Source: an uncultured Duodenibacillus sp. (GTDB taxonomy: Bacteria > Pseudomonadota > Gammaproteobacteria > Burkholderiales > Burkholderiaceae_F). From it: a stretch of DNA of 64,000 bases. The translations under genes were made by a program, and so were the position numbers. Where the stretch lies: positions 1 to 64,000 of the forward strand of contig CALXQK010000007.1 of the NCBI GenBank assembly GCA_944390745.1, written 5' to 3'. The notes beneath the pieces were generated by a model. It did not search any database and had not been told where the DNA came from. It saw only the letters and a program-made list of their open reading frames with translations. Below, one piece after another: positions 36,670 to 46,509 of this stretch; position 1 is the first letter of the stretch, and the number at the start of each line of letters is the position of its first letter.

Positions 36670-37911
36670 TTACTGGCGCATCGCCGCATCGCGCACCACC
36701 GCCTCGGGCAGCGGGCCGGATTTTCTCGTCGTGCGCTCGCGCTCGAGCTGGCGGCGGACGAGATCCTCATCGAGATCCATAAACGAGAAGGGCTTGAGCG
36801 TTCCGTCGGCAGCCCCCTTGAAGACCTCGCGCAGCGAGGCGCGGGTGATGGCGCGTCCGCCCAGACCGGCGATCACGCTGTAGATCTTCTTCGGGTCGTT
36901 GTGCAGCGCAAGCATCACGTCCTCGGTCAGAACGCCGCCGCAGCCCACCGAGAGCGCGCGGTCGAGCACGACCACGCGGCTGGCGCCGTCAAGCGCCTCG
37001 CGCAGCGCCTCATAGGGGAACGGGCGGTAGCACTTGATGCCCACGACGCCGATCTTCATGCCCTGCTCGCGCAGCTCGTCGACCGTGTCCTTGGCCGTGC
37101 CCAGAACCGAACCCATCGCGATGACGCGGATGTCGGCGTCCTCGCAGCGGTAGGCGTGCACCAGGCCGCCCGAGCGGCGGCCGAACTCCTGATAAAACTC
37201 CTCCTCAATGCGCGGGATGAGCTCCAGGGCCTGCTTGTGCTTGATGTGCGCAAGGCAGCGCACCTCGGTAAAGGCCTCGGGGCCGACCATGGCGCCGATC
37301 GAGACGGGATTGTCGGGATCGAGCTCCTGGCGCGGCTCATAGGGCGGCAGGAAGCGGTCGACCTGCTCCTGGTCGGGCACGTCGATGCGCTCGAAGGCGT
37401 GCGTGAGCACGAAGCCGTCCATGCAGACCATCACCGGCACCGAGAGCTCCTCGGCGATCTTGAAGGCCTGGATGTGCATGTCGGCGGCCTCCTGGTTGGT
37501 CTCGGCAAAAATCTGGATCCAGCCGCTGTCGCGCTGGCTCAGGGAGTCCGAATGGTCGTTCCAGATGTTGATCGGGGCGCCGATGGCGCGGTTGGCGACC
37601 GTCATCACGATGGGAAGCCCCAGGCCCGAGGCGTTGTAGACGGCCTCAACCATGTAGAGCAGACCCTGCGAGGCCGTGGCCGTGTAGGCGCGCGCGCCGC
37701 CGACGCTCGCGCCGATGGCCACGCTCATCGCGGCAAACTCGCTTTCAACGTTGATGTACTCGCAGTTGGGGATGAGCCCCTTGCGGGTCATCGTGCCGAG
37801 TTTTTCCACAATGTGCGTCTGCGGGGAAATGGGGTACGCACAGATGACGTCGGGGCGGCACAGGGCCACGGCCTCGGCCACGCCCTGGCTGCCTTCAATT
37901 TGCTTGAGCAT
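36670..37911 (-). CDS. 2-oxoacid:acceptor oxidoreductase alpha subunit
   Basis: The 413-residue protein has the pyrimidine-binding domain of PorA-type subunits: AYPISPQTHIVEKL near residue 30, TASQGLLYMVEAVYNASGLG with MTVANRAIG, and the C-terminal transketolase-like domain (GVVGIKCYRPFPYEALREAL). With beta it performs the CoA-dependent oxidative decarboxylation of a 2-oxoacid. The start ATG at 37911 has AGGAG eight bases upstream and overlaps the gamma stop as TGATG; codons TTG and CTG just before it are in frame but less likely. Confidence 0.88.
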   Translation of the reverse strand: MLKQIEGSQGVAEAVALCRPDVICAYPISPQTHIVEKLGTMTRKGLIPNCEYINVESEFAAMSVAIGASVGGARAYTATASQGLLYMVEAVYNASGLGLPIVMTVANRAIGAPINIWNDHSDSLSQRDSGWIQIFAETNQEAADMHIQAFKIAEELSVPVMVCMDGFVLTHAFERIDVPDQEQVDRFLPPYEPRQELDPDNPVSIGAMVGPEAFTEVRCLAHIKHKQALELIPRIEEEFYQEFGRRSGGLVHAYRCEDADIRVIAMGSVLGTAKDTVDELREQGMKIGVVGIKCYRPFPYEALREALDGASRVVVLDRALSVGCGGVLTEDVMLALHNDPKKIYSVIAGLGGRAITRASLREVFKGAADGTLKPFSFMDLDEDLVRRQLERERTTRKSGPLPEAVVRDAAMRQ

Positions 37912-38495
37912 CAGCAATTCTCCTTAAACTGCGCCAGCTGCTGCTGAATGTGTTGATAGGCCAGTTCGGCGACCGCGCCGTTGGCCTCGCCCACCTTGCC
38001 GGGATAGCGCGCCATGTACGCCTGCTGAATGCTCTCGAGCTTCAGGCCCCCGGTGATCGAGGCAAAGCCCGCGAGCATGGCCGCGCCCGGCAGGGGACGG
38101 CCGATCTTTTCGAGGGCAAAGCGCGTGGCCGGCACGGTCATGACGTGCCCCTTCGGAAGACGCTCGACGAGCTGCGAGAGCCCCATGTGCTCAGGGCTCT
38201 CCGAACTGTTGATGATGACGTAGCCGTCCTCGCGAAGGCCGCCGAAGACGTCCACCGACTCGAGCAGCGTCTTGTCCTGCACGAGCACCACGTCGGGCTC
38301 CTGAATGGGCTCGCGCAGCCGGATCTCCTGCGAGTCGATGCGGCAGAAGGCGACCACGGGCGCGCCGGTGCGCTCCGAGCCGAAGCTCGGGAAGGCCTGC
38401 GCCCAGTGTCCCTCCGTGAAGGCGGCCACGCTCAGCATTTCAGCAGCCGTGACGACGCCCTGGCCGCCGCGGCCGTGAAGTCGGATTTGATACAC
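37911..38495 (-). CDS. 2-oxoacid:acceptor oxidoreductase gamma subunit
   Basis: The 194-residue protein carries the PorC/gamma signature RLHGRGGQGVVTAAEMLSVA at its N-terminus, then FPSFGSERTGAPVVAFCRI and a CoA-contact region. It starts with GTG: AAAGGAG stands seven bases before it, while the only upstream ATG in frame would add 63 unrelated residues. It is the first gene of the gamma-alpha-beta-flavoprotein operon. The gamma subunit is thought to help bind CoA. Confidence 0.88.
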   Translation of the reverse strand: MYQIRLHGRGGQGVVTAAEMLSVAAFTEGHWAQAFPSFGSERTGAPVVAFCRIDSQEIRLREPIQEPDVVLVQDKTLLESVDVFGGLREDGYVIINSSESPEHMGLSQLVERLPKGHVMTVPATRFALEKIGRPLPGAAMLAGFASITGGLKLESIQQAYMARYPGKVGEANGAVAELAYQHIQQQLAQFKENC

Positions 38496-38881
38496 GATAG
38501 ATCTCCTTTTTTCTGAACACGCTCGCGGCGGCAAAAGGAGTCCGTCCGCGACGTCACGCAAGCGACGGTCCGATCGCATGCCAGACGTCGCTGATTCCGA
38601 GGAGGGAGCCGGTCTCTTTTGAACCCCGCTCCTCAACCTGTCAACTCTAGCAAAGATTCCACCTCGGCGCTGAGGGTTTTCCACTCTAAATCAATAACAG
38701 TTTCACAATATGAAAGAATGAAGCATCGCTTACATTGAATCCTTCATCTCGATTGTGCGCACTCGCCCAAAGCGTCCTCCACCGGATGCCGCCGCCCTAC
38801 AATTCCCGGTTCAGACGCGCCGGCCCGGTACGGCCGCGCGCCTCTCCGGCCCCTTTTTTCGCCCTTTTTTTGCGCCCGCTC
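38496..38881. other. Divergent intergenic region, 2-oxoacid oxidoreductase / DUF3455 lipoprotein genes
   Basis: This 386-base gap is notably AT-rich at 38640-38760, where the promoter for the leftward operon is likely. TTGTGA and TTGACA-like boxes occur on the minus strand but without well-placed -10 partners. No gene and no clear operator could be assigned. Confidence 0.35.
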
Positions 38882-39436
38882 ATGCCCATGTCCTCACCCA
38901 GCCGCCTTCGTTCCGCCCGCCCGGTTCTGCTTGTCCCGGCCATTGCCGCGCTGCTTGCCCTTGCCGGCTGCGCGCAGCTGCAAAGCCTCACCGGCAGCGG
39001 CCCCTCTGACCCGCTTGCGCCCGACGGCGGCAAGCTCGTGATGACGCTTCAGGGAAGCGGCACGCAGCAGTTTCAGTGCGCCTCCGACCAGAAGGGCCGC
39101 TGGTGGAAGTTCATCGCCCCCGACGTCAAGCTCGTCGACGGCACGGGACGCACGGTTGCGCACCAGGGGCCCGACTTCATCTTTCGCGCCGGGGACGGAT
39201 CGGTGGCAAGCGCGCGCATCGTCAACTGGGACAAAAAGCCTGAAAACCCCTCGAACCTGCGCGACGTTCTCTTTGCGCTGCGCGCCCAGGGCAAGACCGC
39301 CGGCGTGCTCACGGGCATTCGCTGGGTGAGCCGCACCGAGGGCCAGGGCGGCCAGCCCCTGACGCGCTGCTCGGCCTCGCAGATCGGCACCACCCTCAAG
39401 GTGCCCTTTACGGCAACCTACCGCCTGTACCGGTAG
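38882..39436 (+). CDS. DUF3455 domain lipoprotein
   Basis: The 184-residue precursor has a lipoprotein signal peptide with a good lipobox (LLALAGC, Cys near residue 31). The mature part matches the DUF3455 pattern: LVMTLQGSGTQQFQC, WKFIAPDVKLVDGTGRTVAH, HQGPDFIFRAGDGS, NLRDVLFALRAQGKTAGVL, IRWVSRTEGQGG. It is probably anchored in the outer membrane facing the periplasm; the function of the family is unknown. Two ATGs six bases apart (38882, 38888) are possible starts, neither with a Shine-Dalgarno. The open frame runs further upstream but lacks a signal peptide there. A clear terminator follows. Confidence 0.78.
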   Translation: MPMSSPSRLRSARPVLLVPAIAALLALAGCAQLQSLTGSGPSDPLAPDGGKLVMTLQGSGTQQFQCASDQKGRWWKFIAPDVKLVDGTGRTVAHQGPDFIFRAGDGSVASARIVNWDKKPENPSNLRDVLFALRAQGKTAGVLTGIRWVSRTEGQGGQPLTRCSASQIGTTLKVPFTATYRLYR

Positions 39437-39634: not shown

Positions 39635-40375
39635 CTACTTTCCTGCAAGCCCCTCGTGCGTGGCGAAGAAGTCCGCCAGGCCCGCAATCTCCTCATCGGT
39701 GAGCTCCTTGGCAAAGAAGCGCATCTCGCTCAGCATGTCGGAGGTTCGGGTGCCGTCGCGGTACTGCTTGAGGGCAATCTCAAGATAATTTCGTCCCTGG
39801 CCGTAGAGCACGGGCACGGCCTGGTTGGGATTGCCCCTGCCCGAGACGCCGTGGCAGGCCGCGCAGGGCGTGATGTTGCGCGACACGTCGCCCTTGGTCA
39901 CGAGCTTGAGCGCGGCGTCGCCTCCCTTGCCCGCCTCGCGGGGCGCGGGCAGCTTGCCCGCGGCGTAGATGGCCGCAAGGTTGGCAATCTGCTGGTCGGT
40001 CAGCGGCCTGGCCGCTGCCGCCATCAGGTCGGCCCGGGCGTCGCCCGAGCGGCGGCCGTCGCGATAGTCAAGCAGGGCCTTGATGATGACCTCGGCGGGC
40101 TGTCCGCCAAGGCTCGGATAGTGCTCCGAGTCGGCATTGCCCGCCTTGCCGTGGCAGCTGTTGCAAAAGAGCCCGGCATGGTCTGCGGCGCCTGCAATGA
40201 AGCTCCCCTCGGGCATGGCCTTGAGGGTTTTCGCCCAGGCCTCGGGCGTGAGCGTCTCGGGGGCGGTTTGCGGCGCATCACCGGCTGCGGCTGCCGCAGC
40301 CGCGGCAAGCGCGCAGGCCGCGGCGGCGAGCGTGCGCTTGATGGTGCGCTCAAAGTCAGGTGCAGTCATTTTCAT
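39635..40375 (-). CDS. Diheme cytochrome c, c4-like
   Basis: The 246-residue precursor has an Ala-rich signal peptide (to about residue 32) and two class I cytochrome c domains, each with one CxxCH (CNSCH near residue 71, CAACH near 173) and plausible distal Met ligands (DLMAAAARPLTD and SDMLSEMRFFAKELTD). This is the layout of periplasmic cytochrome c4, which shuttles electrons between membrane complexes and terminal enzymes. It lies 89 bases downstream of the FccB-like gene on the same strand and is probably the last gene of the five-gene electron-transfer operon. Confidence 0.85.
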   Translation of the reverse strand: MKMTAPDFERTIKRTLAAAACALAAAAAAAAGDAPQTAPETLTPEAWAKTLKAMPEGSFIAGAADHAGLFCNSCHGKAGNADSEHYPSLGGQPAEVIIKALLDYRDGRRSGDARADLMAAAARPLTDQQIANLAAIYAAGKLPAPREAGKGGDAALKLVTKGDVSRNITPCAACHGVSGRGNPNQAVPVLYGQGRNYLEIALKQYRDGTRTSDMLSEMRFFAKELTDEEIAGLADFFATHEGLAGK

Positions 40376-40464
40376 AAGCAGATTCCGGCGCGCGGGCGGC
40401 GCGCGCCCTTTCTAGTGGCATGCATGTGGATGCATCGGGTTCATCGGGGGCGCATCCGCGCGTC

Positions 40465-41901
40465 CTACACGAAGCTGTCGAGGGTGATGGTGCGAATCCA
40501 GCTGCGCAGGTAGCGCGCGGCCGCACGCCGCTCACCGTCGGTGGCCGTGTAGAACTGATAGCGGGCGCGGGTGTTGGTGCGGGCGATCTTTCCCTCCACG
40601 ATGCGGAAGGTGTCGGCCACAAAGATTCCCCAGGCGTCGCCCGCAAGCGCGTAGCAGGTGTTCGACCAGGCGGGCTCGGGCACCGGACGACCTGCAATCG
40701 TCTCGGTGATGGCGCGCGCCGTCACCTTGGCCTGCGTGTTGGCTGAAAAGCCGCTCTTGGGCATGGCGTCGGCAATCGAGGCGTCGCCGAGCACATACAC
40801 CCCGGGGTGCACCGTGGACTCGAACGTGCGCCGGTCGACCGGGCAGAACCCGGACTTGTCCGTGAGCCCCATCTGCGCAGCAATGCGGGCCGCGCGCATG
40901 GGCGGAATAAAGTTGATCACGTCGGCGCGGACCACCTCGCCCGAGGCCGTCGTCACGGTCATGGCGCCGGGATCGACGGCAACGGGCGCGCCGCCCTCGT
41001 CCTTGCGGCGCCAGAAAAGCGAGGTCGCTCCCCCGGGCTTCTTCAAGTAGTCCTTGAGCCGGGTGCGGTAGGGTTCGGGCGGCTCAAACTCATAGAGGTG
41101 GTTCCAGCCGATCAGCATCGTCTCATCGGTGACGAAGTCGTTCTTCGGGTCGAGCACGATCACCCGCGCGCCCTTCTTGTGCGTGCGCGTCCACTCGTAG
41201 ACAAGGGCCGCGCGCTCGTAGGGTCCGGGCGGGCAGCGGTACGGGTTGGGCGGCGCGGCCAGAACGAACGTTCCGTTTTCGGGCATGTCCAGAAGCTGCC
41301 GGCGCAGCAGCGCCGTCTGGCGTCCCGCGATCCACCCCGAGGGAATGCGCGTTTCGGCAACGGCCGTGCTGTAGCCCGGCACCGCGTCGTAGAGCAGCTC
41401 AATGCCCGGGGAGACCACGAGAAAGTCGTAGCCGAACCGCCCGCCCGAGGCGGTGCGCACCTCGCGCGCGTCGGGATCGAGCCCCACGACGTTTTCCTCA
41501 AGCACGCGGATGCCGCGCTGCCTGAGCCCCTCGTAGTCCACGCGCAGATCGTCCATCGAGACCGCGCCCGTGAGCACTTCAGAGGAGCCGTAGTGGCGCG
41601 TGAAGTACGGATTGCGCTCGAGAACCGTGATGTCGGCCCCGGGCGAGAACATCTTCATGTACTTGGCAAACGTCGCGCCGCCCACGCCTGCGCCCACCAC
41701 GAGGATGCGCGCGGGCGCTCCGCCCGCTGCGGCCGCCTGAGCGGCCTCGGCCCGGGAGGCAAGGGCCATCGGCCCGGCCCAGCCCGCGGTGAGCAGCGCG
41801 CTTGCAAAGCCCTTGAGCAGCAGTCTGCGGCTGGCCTCGGGAATGTCAGCGCGCGAGACATCCTGCACGGCCTTCAGAAAGAAGCGGTTCTTGTCCATCA
41901 C
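40465..41901 (-). CDS. FccB/SQR-like flavoprotein (flavocytochrome c sulfide dehydrogenase type)
   Basis: The 478-residue protein carries a Tat-like signal (EASRRLLLKGFASALL, residues 23-38), an FAD motif ILVVGAGVGGATFAKYM near 65, YDFLVVSPGIELLYD and a C-terminal NAYALAGD-like region (TCYALAGDAWGIFVAD), matching the FccB subunit of flavocytochrome c sulfide dehydrogenase. Both redox-active cysteines of the family appear to be kept (YRCPPGPYERA near 220, GFCPVD near 352). The Cys that covalently holds FAD in Allochromatium FccB is replaced (RNPYFTRHYGSSEV), so FAD is probably non-covalent. It would oxidise sulfide, or reduce a polysulfide or related compound, in the periplasm, exchanging electrons with the cytochrome encoded 4 bases upstream (ATGA overlap). 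Confidence 0.82.
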   Translation of the reverse strand: MMDKNRFFLKAVQDVSRADIPEASRRLLLKGFASALLTAGWAGPMALASRAEAAQAAAAGGAPARILVVGAGVGGATFAKYMKMFSPGADITVLERNPYFTRHYGSSEVLTGAVSMDDLRVDYEGLRQRGIRVLEENVVGLDPDAREVRTASGGRFGYDFLVVSPGIELLYDAVPGYSTAVAETRIPSGWIAGRQTALLRRQLLDMPENGTFVLAAPPNPYRCPPGPYERAALVYEWTRTHKKGARVIVLDPKNDFVTDETMLIGWNHLYEFEPPEPYRTRLKDYLKKPGGATSLFWRRKDEGGAPVAVDPGAMTVTTASGEVVRADVINFIPPMRAARIAAQMGLTDKSGFCPVDRRTFESTVHPGVYVLGDASIADAMPKSGFSANTQAKVTARAITETIAGRPVPEPAWSNTCYALAGDAWGIFVADTFRIVEGKIARTNTRARYQFYTATDGERRAAARYLRSWIRTITLDSFV

Positions 41902-42296
41902 TTGCCCTCCGCGGGAGTTTTTGAAAGGTTCTGCGCATGAAAGTTTCCAAGCTCTGCGTAGGGGATGGTCCCGTTGGGAGAGGGTTTGCGCGAGGAGAAC
42001 CAGTCGGCGATGCGGCCGATTTCCGCATCGCTGTAGCCGTTGGCGATGTGGCTCATGATCGAGCTCGGACGCTTGAGGTCCCGAAATTCAGTCATCAGGC
42101 GCACGATCGTCTCGCGCGGCATGCCCGCCAGCGGCACGAAGGCCTCGCCCTCGAGCTCGCCGTTGGTGCCGTGGCACGCCGCGCAGGTGTGCGCAAAGGT
42201 CTCGCCCGTGGGCTCGGCGGCCGCCGCGGGAAGCGCCGCGGCCAGCGAGCCGGCCGCGGCCAGCAGCAGCGCCGTGATGTTTGTGTTGAGTTTCAT
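41898..42296 (-). CDS. Monoheme cytochrome c, FccA-like subunit
   Basis: The 132-residue precursor has a Sec signal peptide cleaved near PAAAAEP and one haem site CAACHG, with SSIMSHIANGYSDAEIG offering the Met ligand; this is the class I cytochrome c_553/FccA pattern. The ATG at 42296 is favoured over the one at 42302 because GGAGG is then eight bases upstream. Its gene lies directly before the FccB-like gene with a 4-base overlap, the arrangement of fccA-fccB, so it is likely the haem subunit of that flavocytochrome. Confidence 0.83.
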   Translation of the reverse strand: MKLNTNITALLLAAAGSLAAALPAAAAEPTGETFAHTCAACHGTNGELEGEAFVPLAGMPRETIVRLMTEFRDLKRPSSIMSHIANGYSDAEIGRIADWFSSRKPSPNGTIPYAELGNFHAQNLSKTPAEGK

Positions 42297-42310
42297 GGTC
42301 ATGCCCTCCG

Positions 42311-43552
42311 CTAGCCCGCGCCCGTGATGGTTGCGATGCCGATGATGAAGTACCCCGCCACCCAGGCCAGCAGCAGCGCCACGGCGGCGGTGCCGAGCCG
42401 CTCGGTGCCGGCCGAGACGGTCATTGCGCCCTGCGGGCGGCCGGCCTGCCAGGCCAGGCGGATCATGTAGGCAAGCGCCACGCCGCCGATGAGCAGGAAG
42501 GTGACGAAGAAGATCACCGTCGAGGGCAGGTCAAAGTTCACCTTGTACTGCATGGCGTCGTAGCCCGCGGCCTGCAGCAGCGTGCCGTAGCGCAGCACCT
42601 CGCGCAGGGCGGCGAGCACGATCGTCATCACGATCGACATCAGGAACATGCCGTAGTTGCAGGGGATGCACAGGCGGCGCTTCTTCTGCAGCGCGGGCAG
42701 CGCCAGAAAGAAGATCACCGGCACAAGTCCCGCCCAGGGCCAGATGCTTGAGGCAAACCACTGCATCGACGCGGGCAGCGTGAGCATCCAGGCCGCGCCC
42801 GAGACGAGCAGCACGATGCCGCCGATGAAGGCCGTGCGCCGGCCGGTCATCTCCAGATAGTCGATGTAGCCGCCGTCGCGCTCCTGGCTGCCCAGAAGGT
42901 AGGCCCGCATGCCGAAGAGCCATGCGGCGGTGATCGGGAAGGCAAGGCCGAGGAAGAAGACCAGGCGCGGAATCGAGCTGTAGTGCAGCGCCCGGCCCGA
43001 GGGATCCACGCGGCCCTGCGGGGCGTACCACTGCATGAACTCCGAGGGCAGCAGCAGCTGCGTCGACAGCGAGTGGATCACCCAGCCGCCGGCAATGAAG
43101 ACAATCAGGCTCACGACCAGCCAGGACGCGCGGCGCAGTCCCGGTCCAGCGTTCTCGCCGCCCTCGTCATTGGCAAGGGCAAACACATAGAGCGCGAGGT
43201 AGCCCGCAAGCACGAGCACCAGGAAGGCAAGCGTCCAGCCCGCCGAGAGCATGCTCGAGGTGTACCAGAACGGGTCGTAGACCACCTGCACGAACAGAAG
43301 CGGCGCCACGCCGAGCACGATCACCATGCCGACGACGAACTTCGCGGTGAAGGCAGCCGGCCGCGCCAGGCGCTGCGCGTACGCGTCCCGGGAAAAGATC
43401 GCGCCGCGGATGGCAAGCACGAGCGTTCCGAGCAGCAGCGCCACGGCCGCGATGTGCAGGGCGAAGGTCACCACGCCGAGCACCAGGAAGATGAGCGGAT
43501 GGGCGGGCGCTCCGGCCGGATCCATCAGCGCCAGAAAGAGAGTCTCGTTCAT
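42311..43552 (-). CDS. CydA-like multi-pass membrane protein, second subunit of a bd-superfamily module
   Basis: The 413-residue protein has eight to nine membrane segments. The N-terminal segment HPLIFLVLGVVTFALHIAA aligns with the first helix of CydA and of its upstream partner, with a His in the position of the high-spin haem ligand. The paired Glu residues of the second CydA signature are not evident. LPALQKKRRLCIPCNYGMFL is a cytoplasmic loop with a CxxC. It looks like a diverged paralogue of the neighbouring CydA-like protein, similar in concept to CydA/CydA' pairs. The ATG at 43552 has AAGGAGG and overlaps the previous stop (ATGA); upstream extension of the frame is antisense noise. 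Confidence 0.72.
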   Translation of the reverse strand: MNETLFLALMDPAGAPAHPLIFLVLGVVTFALHIAAVALLLGTLVLAIRGAIFSRDAYAQRLARPAAFTAKFVVGMVIVLGVAPLLFVQVVYDPFWYTSSMLSAGWTLAFLVLVLAGYLALYVFALANDEGGENAGPGLRRASWLVVSLIVFIAGGWVIHSLSTQLLLPSEFMQWYAPQGRVDPSGRALHYSSIPRLVFFLGLAFPITAAWLFGMRAYLLGSQERDGGYIDYLEMTGRRTAFIGGIVLLVSGAAWMLTLPASMQWFASSIWPWAGLVPVIFFLALPALQKKRRLCIPCNYGMFLMSIVMTIVLAALREVLRYGTLLQAAGYDAMQYKVNFDLPSTVIFFVTFLLIGGVALAYMIRLAWQAGRPQGAMTVSAGTERLGTAAVALLLAWVAGYFIIGIATITGAG

Positions 43553-44949
43553 TTTGCAGCCTCCTTGGAAGCCGTCGTGGCGTCGCTGCCGGTGATCACC
43601 AGCGCGGCCGGATCGGGAGAGTTCAGGGCCTTGTGCAGGAACTCGGCCAGGGCCGAGCGCTCGTCGGCCGGCAGCGGCAGCGGCGGCATGTAGGCCGTGT
43701 GGCCGTGATACAGGCCCGCGCCGAGATAGGTCTCGATGTCCTTCTTCGAGGTCTGCGGCGCAAAGACCGTGTTCATTGGCCGGATGCCGGTGCGCGTGAG
43801 CGAATGGCACGAGGCGCACATTGAAAGCGCGATGAAGCGCCCGGCCTCAAGACGGTTTTCGGGCGTCACGCTGCGCAGCCCCTCGGGCGTGAAGGGATGC
43901 GTCGCAAGCAGTCCCTTCTGGGCAAGCAGCGGCAGCTCGCTCTTGATGCCGAGCCCCGGCACGTCGCGTCCGATCACCTGGTTGGAATAGACGAACTGTC
44001 CCGAGGTCCAGGGCTTGCGGATGATCTCGCGGGCGGTTTCCTCGGGCGCCAGGCCGAGCACGAGGATCACGACCGTCGCCACGGCCGCCACGGCCGAGGT
44101 GAGCAGCCTCGGCGCGGCCGCCATGAGAAGGAAGTACACCAGGCTCAGACCGACGGCCGTGGTCATCATGAGCGGGAAGGATTCGGGCAGGCGGGTCTCG
44201 GCCACGAGCGCCGCCTCCGCCGGAAGCGTGCCGAGGTACCAGTAAAAGCACGCCACGCCGCCCACCGAGCCCACAATGCCCACGATCGAGAGCGCGCGCG
44301 AGACGCTTGCCTTCTCGGCCGGGTCCTTGATGCGGCCGGCCACGATGCCGCCCACGACGCCCGTGATGGTGAGCATGAAGAACAGGCGGGTGAACATCTG
44401 GGCAAACGTGTTGGGCCCGAAGAAGGCCTGCATCACGCTTCCGGTCTCAAACCAGGACGGATTGCCCGGCCAGAGCATGAAGCTCAGCACGCCCACGATG
44501 ACCATGAGCGTGGCAAGCGACGAGAGCGCAAAGATGGCCGACAGCTTCATGTACGTGCGCGTCGAGACGCGCTGCGCGAGGTACACCAGCAGATACACGC
44601 CGACGATCTCGACGATGAAGAACACCCACTCCGTGGCCCAGAGCCAGACGAAGTTGTGAATCAGCGCCGAAAGCCCGCGCGGGTTGGCGAGCGTGGCGGA
44701 AAACCAGATTCCGGGGCCGGTCACCGAGCCCAGCACGTAGCTGAAGATCAGCAGGAACATGCCGTAGCGGCGGATGAAGGTCAGGTACTCGGGCTTGTTG
44801 TACTTCACCGCACGGCGCGCAAGCCATGCAAACAGAAGCGCACTGCCCACCGAGGCGTGGGAAAAGAGCACGTGGATGGTGGCGATGATGGCAATCACCC
44901 AGCCGCTGCCCACGCCCGGTTCAAACCAGGTTGGATACAGTCCCAGCAT
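43549..44949 (-). CDS. Cytochrome bd-like CydA homologue with C-terminal cytochrome c domain
   Basis: The 466-residue protein has about eight membrane segments, then a periplasmic class I cytochrome c domain with CASCH near residue 382 and a likely Met ligand in HTAYMPPLPL. The N-terminal half follows CydA: TIHVLFSHASVGSALL carries the His equivalent to His19 of E. coli CydA, SYVLGSVTGPGIWF matches the next helix, and ATEWVFFIVEIVG matches the helix with Glu99 and Glu107. The long quinol-binding Q loop of canonical CydA is not visible. It is the first gene of the operon with the second CydA-like gene, fccA/fccB-like genes and a c4-like cytochrome. It may reduce oxygen with electrons from cytochrome c, or connect the quinone pool to the periplasmic flavocytochrome. 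Confidence 0.78.
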   Translation of the reverse strand: MLGLYPTWFEPGVGSGWVIAIIATIHVLFSHASVGSALLFAWLARRAVKYNKPEYLTFIRRYGMFLLIFSYVLGSVTGPGIWFSATLANPRGLSALIHNFVWLWATEWVFFIVEIVGVYLLVYLAQRVSTRTYMKLSAIFALSSLATLMVIVGVLSFMLWPGNPSWFETGSVMQAFFGPNTFAQMFTRLFFMLTITGVVGGIVAGRIKDPAEKASVSRALSIVGIVGSVGGVACFYWYLGTLPAEAALVAETRLPESFPLMMTTAVGLSLVYFLLMAAAPRLLTSAVAAVATVVILVLGLAPEETAREIIRKPWTSGQFVYSNQVIGRDVPGLGIKSELPLLAQKGLLATHPFTPEGLRSVTPENRLEAGRFIALSMCASCHSLTRTGIRPMNTVFAPQTSKKDIETYLGAGLYHGHTAYMPPLPLPADERSALAEFLHKALNSPDPAALVITGSDATTASKEAAK

Positions 44950-45606: not shown

Positions 45607-46104
45607 TCAGTGCGACTTCTTGGTGATGATGTCGATGCAGCACATGACGAAGGCCGAAAGCACGAACGTCAGGTGAATGAGGACGTACCACATCAGCTTG
45701 TCGTTTGTGATCGCCTCAAGATTCATGAAGATGCGCAGCAGGTGAATCGATGAGATGGCCACGATGCTTGCCGCGACCTTGTTCTTGAGCGAGCCCGAGT
45801 CCATCTTTCCAAGCCAGGCAAGCTTCTCGTTGCTTGCGCTGTCAAGGTCAAGCCGCGAGATGAAGTTCTCATAGCTCGAGTACATCACCATCACGATCAG
45901 GCCGCCCACAAGCCCCATGTCGATCATGGACAGCAGCGAGAGAATGAGGTCCGACTCGGAGAGCTCGAAGACGTGCGGCAGCACGTGCGCCACCTCCTGA
46001 AAGAACTTCAGGGCAAGCGCAATGAGGGCAAAGGAAAGCCCGAGAAAAACCGGTGCGATCAACCAGCGCGCGCTGTAGAAAAAGCGCTCAAAAATCTTTT
46101 CCAT
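45607..46104 (-). CDS. UPF0114 (YqhA) family inner-membrane protein
   Basis: The 165-residue protein begins [19 protein letters not shown] and contains [28 protein letters not shown] and [20 protein letters not shown], with [11 protein letters not shown] near the C-terminus; all are hallmarks of UPF0114/YqhA. Three to four membrane segments are predicted. The function of the family is not established. The ATG at 46104 is chosen on family alignment; no clear Shine-Dalgarno precedes it. It is a single gene with its own terminator. Confidence 0.88.
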
Positions 46105-46509
46105 GTCAGTGGGTCGTGCTGAAGGCAAAAATCATCCTGTCCCTCTGAAGAGCCGGCCGCGGGGCGCCGCCGACGCGCACGCGCCCGCCCCGCTTCCTTT
46201 TTCGCGAAAGACCGCCTCCCCGGAGGAGACGGAAATTTGCCACAAAACAGCACAAAAGAAAAGCCGCCGCGCGCTTCAAATGATGACGGTTTGCAACGCG
46301 CCGCGCACCGCAAACTCCCCTTCCCGAAACTGCCTTCCTCACCGGGGAGCGATGCTGCCAGTCGAGACAAACGCCAATGAAATCAAGGACCCTGCGGTAA
46401 GCCTAGTACAAACAGGGGCTTGGAAAGGCCCTTGCAAATCAGGTAAAATTGAGCGTTTTCGTCAGGAATTTGACGAGCCCGATTACGAAAGGTATATGTT
46501 GGAGGATTT
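46105..46509. other. Divergent intergenic region, UPF0114 / DUF1801 genes
   Basis: This 405-base gap contains the plus-strand promoter at 46420-46449. A short open frame crosses it but has no ribosome binding site or recognisable product. The rest (46105-46400) shows no clear signal; the leftward promoter for the UPF0114 gene could not be located. Confidence 0.4.
46420..46449 (+). promoter_or_regulatory. Sigma-70-type promoter for the DUF1801 gene
   Basis: TTGGAA (46420-46425) and TAAAAT (46444-46449) are separated by 18 bases, about 60 bases before the start codon at 46510. Confidence 0.6.

Follow-up and report, generated by a model that had tools for sequence, protein, structure and literature searches.

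A conserved five-gene module places flavocytochrome c-like genes beside a putative cytochrome c-fed bd-type oxidase

Members of the OR-C family of the cytochrome bd superfamily carry a C-terminal haem c domain on CydA, and cytochrome-c-linked bd families were reportedly proposed by Murali, Gennis and Hemp (ISME J 2021). The superfamily is divided into the qOR, OR-C and OR-N families (PMC13189123 and PMC11707229, in excerpt), and the naming of OR-C is traced to Murali, Gennis and Hemp 2021 in excerpts of PMC11707229, PMC10839748 and PMC13189123. As excerpted, a 2021 review describes two bd families in which the quinol site is missing and the donor is cytochrome c or possibly another compound, and states that the bd enzymes biochemically characterised by then were all quinol oxidases (PMC8509429); the excerpt of another paper calls the OR-N CydAA' proteins of Nitrospinota putatively cytochrome-c-oxidising, without experimental confirmation (PMC10839748). 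Apparently, a bd oxidase fed by cytochrome c has been predicted by others and has yet to be demonstrated. Here we describe a locus of five genes, termed P1 to P5, in a window of 64,000 nucleotides (the whole stretch analysed, positions 1 to 64,000 of contig CALXQK010000007.1) from an uncultured Duodenibacillus sp. (assembly GCA_944390745.1), in which two CydA-like membrane proteins are encoded together with a flavocytochrome c of the FccAB type and a cytochrome c4. Judging from sequence, we think it rather likely, with some reservation, that these proteins form a compact sulfide:O2 chain in which FccAB oxidises sulfide, c4 carries the electrons and P1/P2 reduces O2.

The module spans 44949 to 39635, and all five genes lie on the minus strand. 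P1 (44949-43549, 466 aa) encodes a CydA-like membrane subunit with a C-terminal haem c domain, and P2 (43552-42311, 413 aa) encodes a second CydA-like membrane subunit, an A'-type partner. They are followed by P3 (42302-41898, 134 aa), a monohaem cytochrome c, by P4 (41901-40465, 478 aa), FccB, the FAD subunit of flavocytochrome c sulfide dehydrogenase, and by P5 (40375-39635, 246 aa), a dihaem cytochrome c4-like protein. The identities given to P3, P4 and P5 in a first-pass annotation of the sequence were confirmed, as were the shared direction and the 4-base overlaps (P1/P2 and P3/P4); P2 and P3 are separated by 8 bases, and the 89 bases between P4 and P5 make its description of short gaps a little loose.

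The order of these genes is conserved far above chance. A scan for P1 in one genome from each of 84,980 species matched 374 stretches, 345 of which encode a relative, and the best 80 of these 345 relatives, lying in 79 loci, were analysed. More than 5 kb of sequence lies downstream of P1 in 60 of the 79 loci, and all five genes are present in 59 of these, 53 of the 60 having the exact order 1-2-3-4-5, in a survey that left out P4 matches below 60 bits and matches on the minus strand. The sole exception (L079) holds P1-P2 and just 476 bases of upstream sequence, and the complete set was also found in 8 of the 19 loci with less room. The five-gene set is thus strongly conserved. Judging by record titles, the carriers among the best 80 include Hydrogenophaga, Tepidimonas, Rhodoferax, Thiomonas and Thiobacillus, and further Halothiobacillus, Thiomicrorhabdus, Hydrogenovibrio, Thiothrix and Thiocapsa; many of these lineages we take to be known sulfur oxidisers, aerobic ones included. 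The closest P1 loci among the best 80 belong to gut Sutterellaceae (Duodenibacillus and 'Sutterella').

An even sample of 398 Pseudomonadota genomes gave a complementary picture. A P1 that includes the membrane part was found in 3 of the 398, namely our own genome and, in distant form, G145 and G247, and P2 is present in exactly those 3; in 11 other genomes the P1 profile matched by the haem c end only. At E<=1e-40, 92 of these genomes encode an FccB-like protein. FccB-like proteins are thus common without the pair, whereas the near-type pair is nearly always accompanied by FccB. In G145 (L139:2120-4864) and G247 (L140:176-2927) a haem c domain ends both proteins of the distant pair, and the contigs carrying the pair (10.9 kb in G145, 3.8 kb in G247) gave no match to the FccB profile, an FccB-like gene lying on a different contig in each genome. 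P1/P2 can therefore occur without adjacent FccAB. In G145 a gene for a Crp-type regulator lies downstream of the distant pair.

Profile comparisons lead us to regard the P1 core as homologous to CydA of the cytochrome bd superfamily. A core profile built from P1 residues 1-345 and two distant relatives matched a core profile of CydA, CIO and OR-N-like proteins at 95.7% (E 1e-8; reversed control 0.1%); against CydA and CIO the value was 90.9% (reversed control 0.1%), and against two proteins that we take to be OR-N-like (L120 and L121) alone it was 70.9%, the match to CydA depending on the profile chosen, core-only with reversed controls as opposed to whole-length. P1 residues H26, E107 and E114 fall in the columns of E. 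coli CydA His19, Glu99 and Glu107, which we take to lie at the active-site haems, the two glutamates presumably on the path by which protons reach the O2 site. These are the residues that the first-pass annotation had read as kept, and the alignment supports it, with the Glu pair 7 residues apart in P1 as against 8 in CydA. In an alignment of 64 of the 80 P1 sequences, H26, E107, E114, R188, E308, R311, P313, C378, C381, H382 and M421 are invariant (64/64).

Two canonical features have been lost. The column of CydA His186, presumably the b558 ligand, holds His in 12 CydA, 5 CIO and 2 OR-N-like sequences, but the ligand is absent from this column in all 8 P1 and 2 distant sequences compared, which have Thr187 (window P1) or Met, Ile or Phe (7 other P1 and the 2 distant rows). 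The invariant Arg188 directly follows this residue; Arg188 itself was considered as the His186-column residue, but a check of the column gave Thr187, so that the loss of His stands. P1 has 8 predicted hydrophobic segments, and as first reported from the sequence it has no long Q loop, only 21 residues lying between segments 6 and 7, where the alignment shows a deletion. At the end of the last segment, P1 has E308..R311.P313, which resembles the E445..R448.P (GRQPW) motif of CydA, in which Glu445 is, we assume, the b595 ligand; the pattern E..R.P[WY] occurs in 73 of 80 P1 open reading frames (ORFs) as opposed to 5 of 907 other long ORFs.

The cytochrome c domain noted earlier at the C terminus of P1 was also borne out: although the domain scores below the Pfam cytochrome c cut-offs, the window P1 has a haem c motif at C378-H382, and exactly one CxxCH is present in 80 of 80 P1 sequences. 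The haem c domain is probably periplasmic, and the 8 segments together with this domain agree with a predicted donor side in the periplasm. P1 is the predicted O2-reducing subunit.

The same features bear on a different reading, in which P1/P2 would be a cytochrome c:quinone oxidoreductase, or work in reverse, and electrons from FccAB would enter the quinone pool and leave it through CydAB or another reductase. The b558 His and the Q loop, both oxidase features, are lost from P1, the canonical CydA of the host could use quinol, and a related Nitrospina bd-like protein has been proposed to work with quinone (PMC3578206, in excerpt). On the other hand, H26, E107 and E114 are invariant while the quinol-site loop is gone, and the haem c domain on both subunits of the distant P1/P2 favours a c-type donor. 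Moreover, transfer of electrons from a cytochrome at the level of c4 to quinone is uphill. We therefore consider this reading unlikely, and the direction from sulfide to O2 is favoured because the O2-site residues are retained, the quinol site is lost and the redox potentials point the same way; a direction at first left undecided is thereby narrowed.

P2 has 10 predicted hydrophobic segments and no haem c motif, and falls in no confident Pfam family, DUF2231 being matched by 10 of 59 P2 relatives at E<=0.01. Its profile matches that of P1 (92.7%, E 4e-7; reversed control 1.8%), which identifies P2, at the level of profiles, as a distant homologue of P1 and agrees with its initial description as a second CydA-like membrane protein. 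The relationship to CydA itself is weaker: P2 gave 0.4% against a CydA and CIO profile and 66% when OR-N-like proteins were included (reversed control 0.1%), so that P2 appears P1-like and only weakly CydA-like. P2 was also considered as a CydB, and the profile comparison gave no match (0.3%). In an alignment of 59 of 75 P2 sequences, H33, H160, E318 and R321 are invariant (59/59). H33 corresponds to P1 H26, but nothing in P2 matches the Glu pair of P1, and the distant P2 that was compared does not retain H160.

P4 is a clear FccB relative. It matches the Pfam models FCSD_central (117 bits) and FCSD-flav_bind (50 bits) and aligns over its length with Allochromatium FccB (PDB 1fcd_A, E 1.1e-100), and its closest solved relatives are sulfide dehydrogenases. 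The redox cysteines of FccB, C223 and C416, are present in 70 of 71 module P4 sequences, the 71st row (L065_2767) being a 30-bit match that is not FccB; a Tat motif is found in 69 of the 71, and the window P4 has a twin-arginine signal. P3 matches Pfam cytochrome c, and all 73 P3 sequences have at least one CxxCH (one in 71, two in 2). In every one of the 60 standard loci, P3 either overlaps P4 or is no more than 16 bases away from it. Together these data make P3 the probable haem subunit, in the role of FccA, of a flavocytochrome c whose sulfide:cytochrome c activity is predicted from the homology of P4 to FccB.

The flavin site shows a difference from the Allochromatium enzyme, where we take Cys42 to be the residue that binds FAD covalently. 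The corresponding position is His103 in the window P4 (41593-41595), and across the 71 module P4 it is Pro in 40, Cys in 22, His in 4, Gly in 3, Ala in 1 and Tyr in 1. Since Cys is found in just 22 of 71, FAD is probably bound non-covalently or otherwise attached in most members. His occupies the position in four gut Sutterellaceae P4, that of the window included, and His103 might allow a histidyl-FAD link in these proteins. In a quick, unrooted tree, 70 module FccB (above 200 bits) and 29 FccB of genomes that lack a near-type P1, the latter being the 29 best-scoring loci of 91 other genomes with an FccB match, are split by one branch (SH-aLRT 99); because the tree is unrooted, and a midpoint drawing puts 21 module rows on the side of the 29 others, it allows a single origin and no more.

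These results touch on the donor, which could be a polysulfide, a thiol or an organic compound, or the flow at this end could be reversed, with the bd-like pair still linked to cytochrome. The varied residues at the covalent-FAD position and the single branch that sets module FccB apart from the 29 others tested would suit such a donor. Against this, 70 of 71 sequences retain both redox cysteines and the nearest proteins of solved structure are sulfide dehydrogenases, and we regard a donor other than sulfide, or a reversed flow, as very improbable.

P5 appears to belong with the membrane pair. It matches Pfam cytochrome c, two CxxCH motifs are present in 69 of 71 P5 sequences, and its best solved match, a cytochrome c4 of the Protein Data Bank (PDB) (6q2u_A, E 4.9e-20), is far stronger than its match to FccA (1fcd_C, 1.6e-5). 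P5 was considered as FccA and rejected on this ground, and also because P3 travels with P4; for the same two reasons P3 is taken as the FccA partner. The order 3-4-1-2-5 occurs in L044, L055, L058 and L078, where P3 moves with P4, and in L005 the genes 1-2-5 occur without 3-4, P5 staying with P1-P2. Consistent with these two blocks, distance correlations across 62 loci (non-independent pairs, with L045, L051, L015 and L065 left out) were highest for P1-P2 (0.94), P5-P2 (0.86), P3-P4 (0.85) and P5-P1 (0.84), ranged from 0.67 to 0.77 when P1 or P2 was set against P3 or P4, and for P5 with P3 and P4 were slightly lower (0.79) than for P5 with the pair. The separable blocks and the correlations suggest that P3 and P4 form the flavocytochrome c and that P5 is the carrier of the oxidase; on these grounds P5 is the probable electron carrier to P1/P2. 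In line with such a role, the 6q2u_A sequence is also found in PDB entries 8smr and 8snh, together with subunits of cbb3 oxidase.

A duplicate of part of the module was seen in a Duodenibacillus metagenome-assembled genome (MAG), E25 bin48, where a second P1-P2 with a c4 gene (L005:7992-11460) has no P3 or P4 nearby and the full module lies in L004. Further variants were found elsewhere. Thiomicrorhabdus heinhorstiae (L051:3936-13330) has two copies of the module in tandem, of which the second leaves the locus inside FccB, and in a Hydrogenophilus MAG an extra P3-P4-P5-like cluster (L045:2118-4519), with an FccB from another branch of the tree, lies about 3.5 kb upstream of a full module. L070, on a contig titled Deltaproteobacteria and shown as Myxococcota, is a case of the module beyond Pseudomonadota. 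The FccB of this locus groups among Burkholderiales in the tree, suggesting transfer or a mis-binned contig.

In our own genome (2.22 Mb, 99.83% complete), a Pfam search gave no match to COX1 (haem-copper oxidase), cytochrome c1 or CCP_MauG, while in a control set of 14 genomes COX1 was matched in 8, cytochrome c1 in 1 and CCP_MauG in 2. P1 was found in 7 of 61 genomes searched, and COX1 in none of the 7. P1/P2 is thus the best candidate acceptor for the electrons of FccB. The genome encodes one canonical CydA (L081) with an adjacent CydB-like ORF, CydB having been recognised by eye.

The presence of this CydA in a probable gut bacterium would suit a mainly detoxifying role, in which P1/P2 uses FccAB electrons to reduce a substrate other than O2, such as NO, peroxide or a sulfur compound, and bd enzymes are known to deal with both NO and peroxide. 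Weighing on the other side are the retained Glu pair, presumably equivalent to residues along which protons reach the O2 site of CydA, and the many carriers in lineages that we take to be aerobic sulfur oxidisers. We think such a role quite improbable.

Several points weigh against O2 reduction by a bd-type P1/P2 fed from FccAB. The canonical CydA of the host means that O2 reduction is not unique to P1, and genomes of the same genus without P1 are also without COX1 above the cut-off, so that lack of COX1 characterises the gut clade and not the module. P1/P2 is still the only candidate oxidase found for FccAB electrons handed to cytochrome c, in a search that did not extend to other c-type acceptors such as nitrite reductases. 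At the level of sequence, the Pfam bd model PF01654 (Cyt_bd_oxida_I) does match residues 17-233 of the window P1 above its cut-off (27.4 bits, cut-off 26.2), but only 14 of 64 P1 relatives match it at E<=1e-3 and 50 miss it, and the distant P1 of G145 has no Pfam bd model match at E<=0.01. Whole-length profiles of P1 and CydA gave 0.4%, where core-only profiles succeeded. A profile of the P1 tail fared no better than its reversed control against the E445/GRQPW region of CydA, so the b595-ligand motif in P1 remains a suggestion. Finally, profile searches of the PDB with P1 hit its haem c domain and otherwise gave chance matches, and with P2 they gave no match; sequence searches thus gave no solved structure for the membrane parts of either protein, and a haem pocket is putative.

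From the gene content, linkage, conservation, homologies and conserved residues described above we infer the haem content, the heterodimer, the substrates, each electron step and the direction of a chain that would lie in the periplasm and inner membrane. P4 and P3 would form a flavocytochrome c, with sulfide oxidised at the Cys223-Cys416 disulfide and FAD of P4 and the electrons accepted by P3. From there the electrons would reach the C-terminal haem c domain of P1, either by way of the dihaem c4 P5 or without it. P1/P2 would be a heterodimer whose two subunits both belong to the bd superfamily: P1 may hold the pair of haems that reduces O2, at H26 and with E107/E114 close by, and P2 may serve as a structural or electron-transfer partner. 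As a bd-type oxidase fed by cytochrome c, it would have no need for quinol, a bc1 complex or a haem-copper oxidase. The first-pass annotation had proposed a chain, linked to sulfide or sulfur compounds, that joins a flavocytochrome to a bd-like complex dependent on cytochrome c. The conserved linkage, the FccB cysteines, the O2-site residues, the loss of the b558 His and Q loop, and the lack of Pfam matches to COX1, cytochrome c1 and CCP_MauG in the host all agree with it, while its chemistry is still a prediction. That the five proteins form a complete sulfide-to-O2 chain which is independent of quinol, bc1 and haem-copper oxidase and is also the only route of c-type electrons to O2 in the gut lineage is a more tentative proposal, for which the chances seem to us a little short of even.

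The neighbouring genes are a gene for a UPF0114 membrane protein upstream (45607-46128, minus strand), a convergent gene for a DUF3455 protein downstream (38735-39436, plus strand) and, beyond it, genes for 2-oxoacid:ferredoxin oxidoreductase subunits (36670-38684, minus strand). Control of the module by an FNR-type box was considered and set aside: such boxes occur in 4 of 76 upstream regions as against 3 of 1520 random stretches, which is too sparse, and none lies within the 751 bases before the window P1.

A search of open-licence PMC papers, covering listings and abstract openings, found no description of an operon joining FccAB to a bd-type enzyme. Cytochrome-c-using bd families are already in print, so the type of enzyme was predicted before and the apparent novelty lies in the linkage to FccAB; the initial view of the module as an undescribed system thus holds in part, the operon being apparently undescribed and the enzyme type already predicted (excerpts of PMC8509429 and PMC10839748). 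Because the operon offers a candidate donor, carrier and oxidase together, the existence of a bd oxidase fed by cytochrome c becomes directly testable. If the chain operates as proposed, it would provide a route of sulfide oxidation that bypasses the quinone pool, and would do so in gut bacteria whose genomes gave no match to a haem-copper oxidase.

Among known systems, OR-C resembles P1/P2 in its CydA-type core, absent quinol-site loop and probable cytochrome c donor, and also in its C-terminal haem c domain, a likeness by description rather than by profile; the FccAB and c4 operon partners of P1/P2 were not found for OR-C in the literature searched. Canonical CydAB, as encoded elsewhere in the same genome (L081), shares with P1 the four-helix core and the H19/E99/E107 equivalents, but in P1 the Q loop and b558 His are missing and a haem c domain is present, and P2 is P1-like and not CydB-like (CydB profile 0.3%). 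In OR-N CydAA' of Nitrospinota and Nitrospira, the 'bd-like oxidase', two CydA-type proteins are likewise thought to associate, and there too a cytochrome c donor is proposed (PMC10839748, in excerpt). The OR-N-like proteins L120 and L121, however, keep the b558 His column and are without a Glu99 equivalent, and they have a multi-helix C-terminal part and no fused haem c where P1 has haem c. Finally, the module shares with FccAB (PDB 1fcd, 3vrd and 5n1t) the FccB domains, the redox disulfide and an adjacent cytochrome partner; it differs in that only 22 of 71 module FccB keep the covalent-FAD Cys, in the monohaem P3 with a separate c4, and in its linkage to a bd-like pair.

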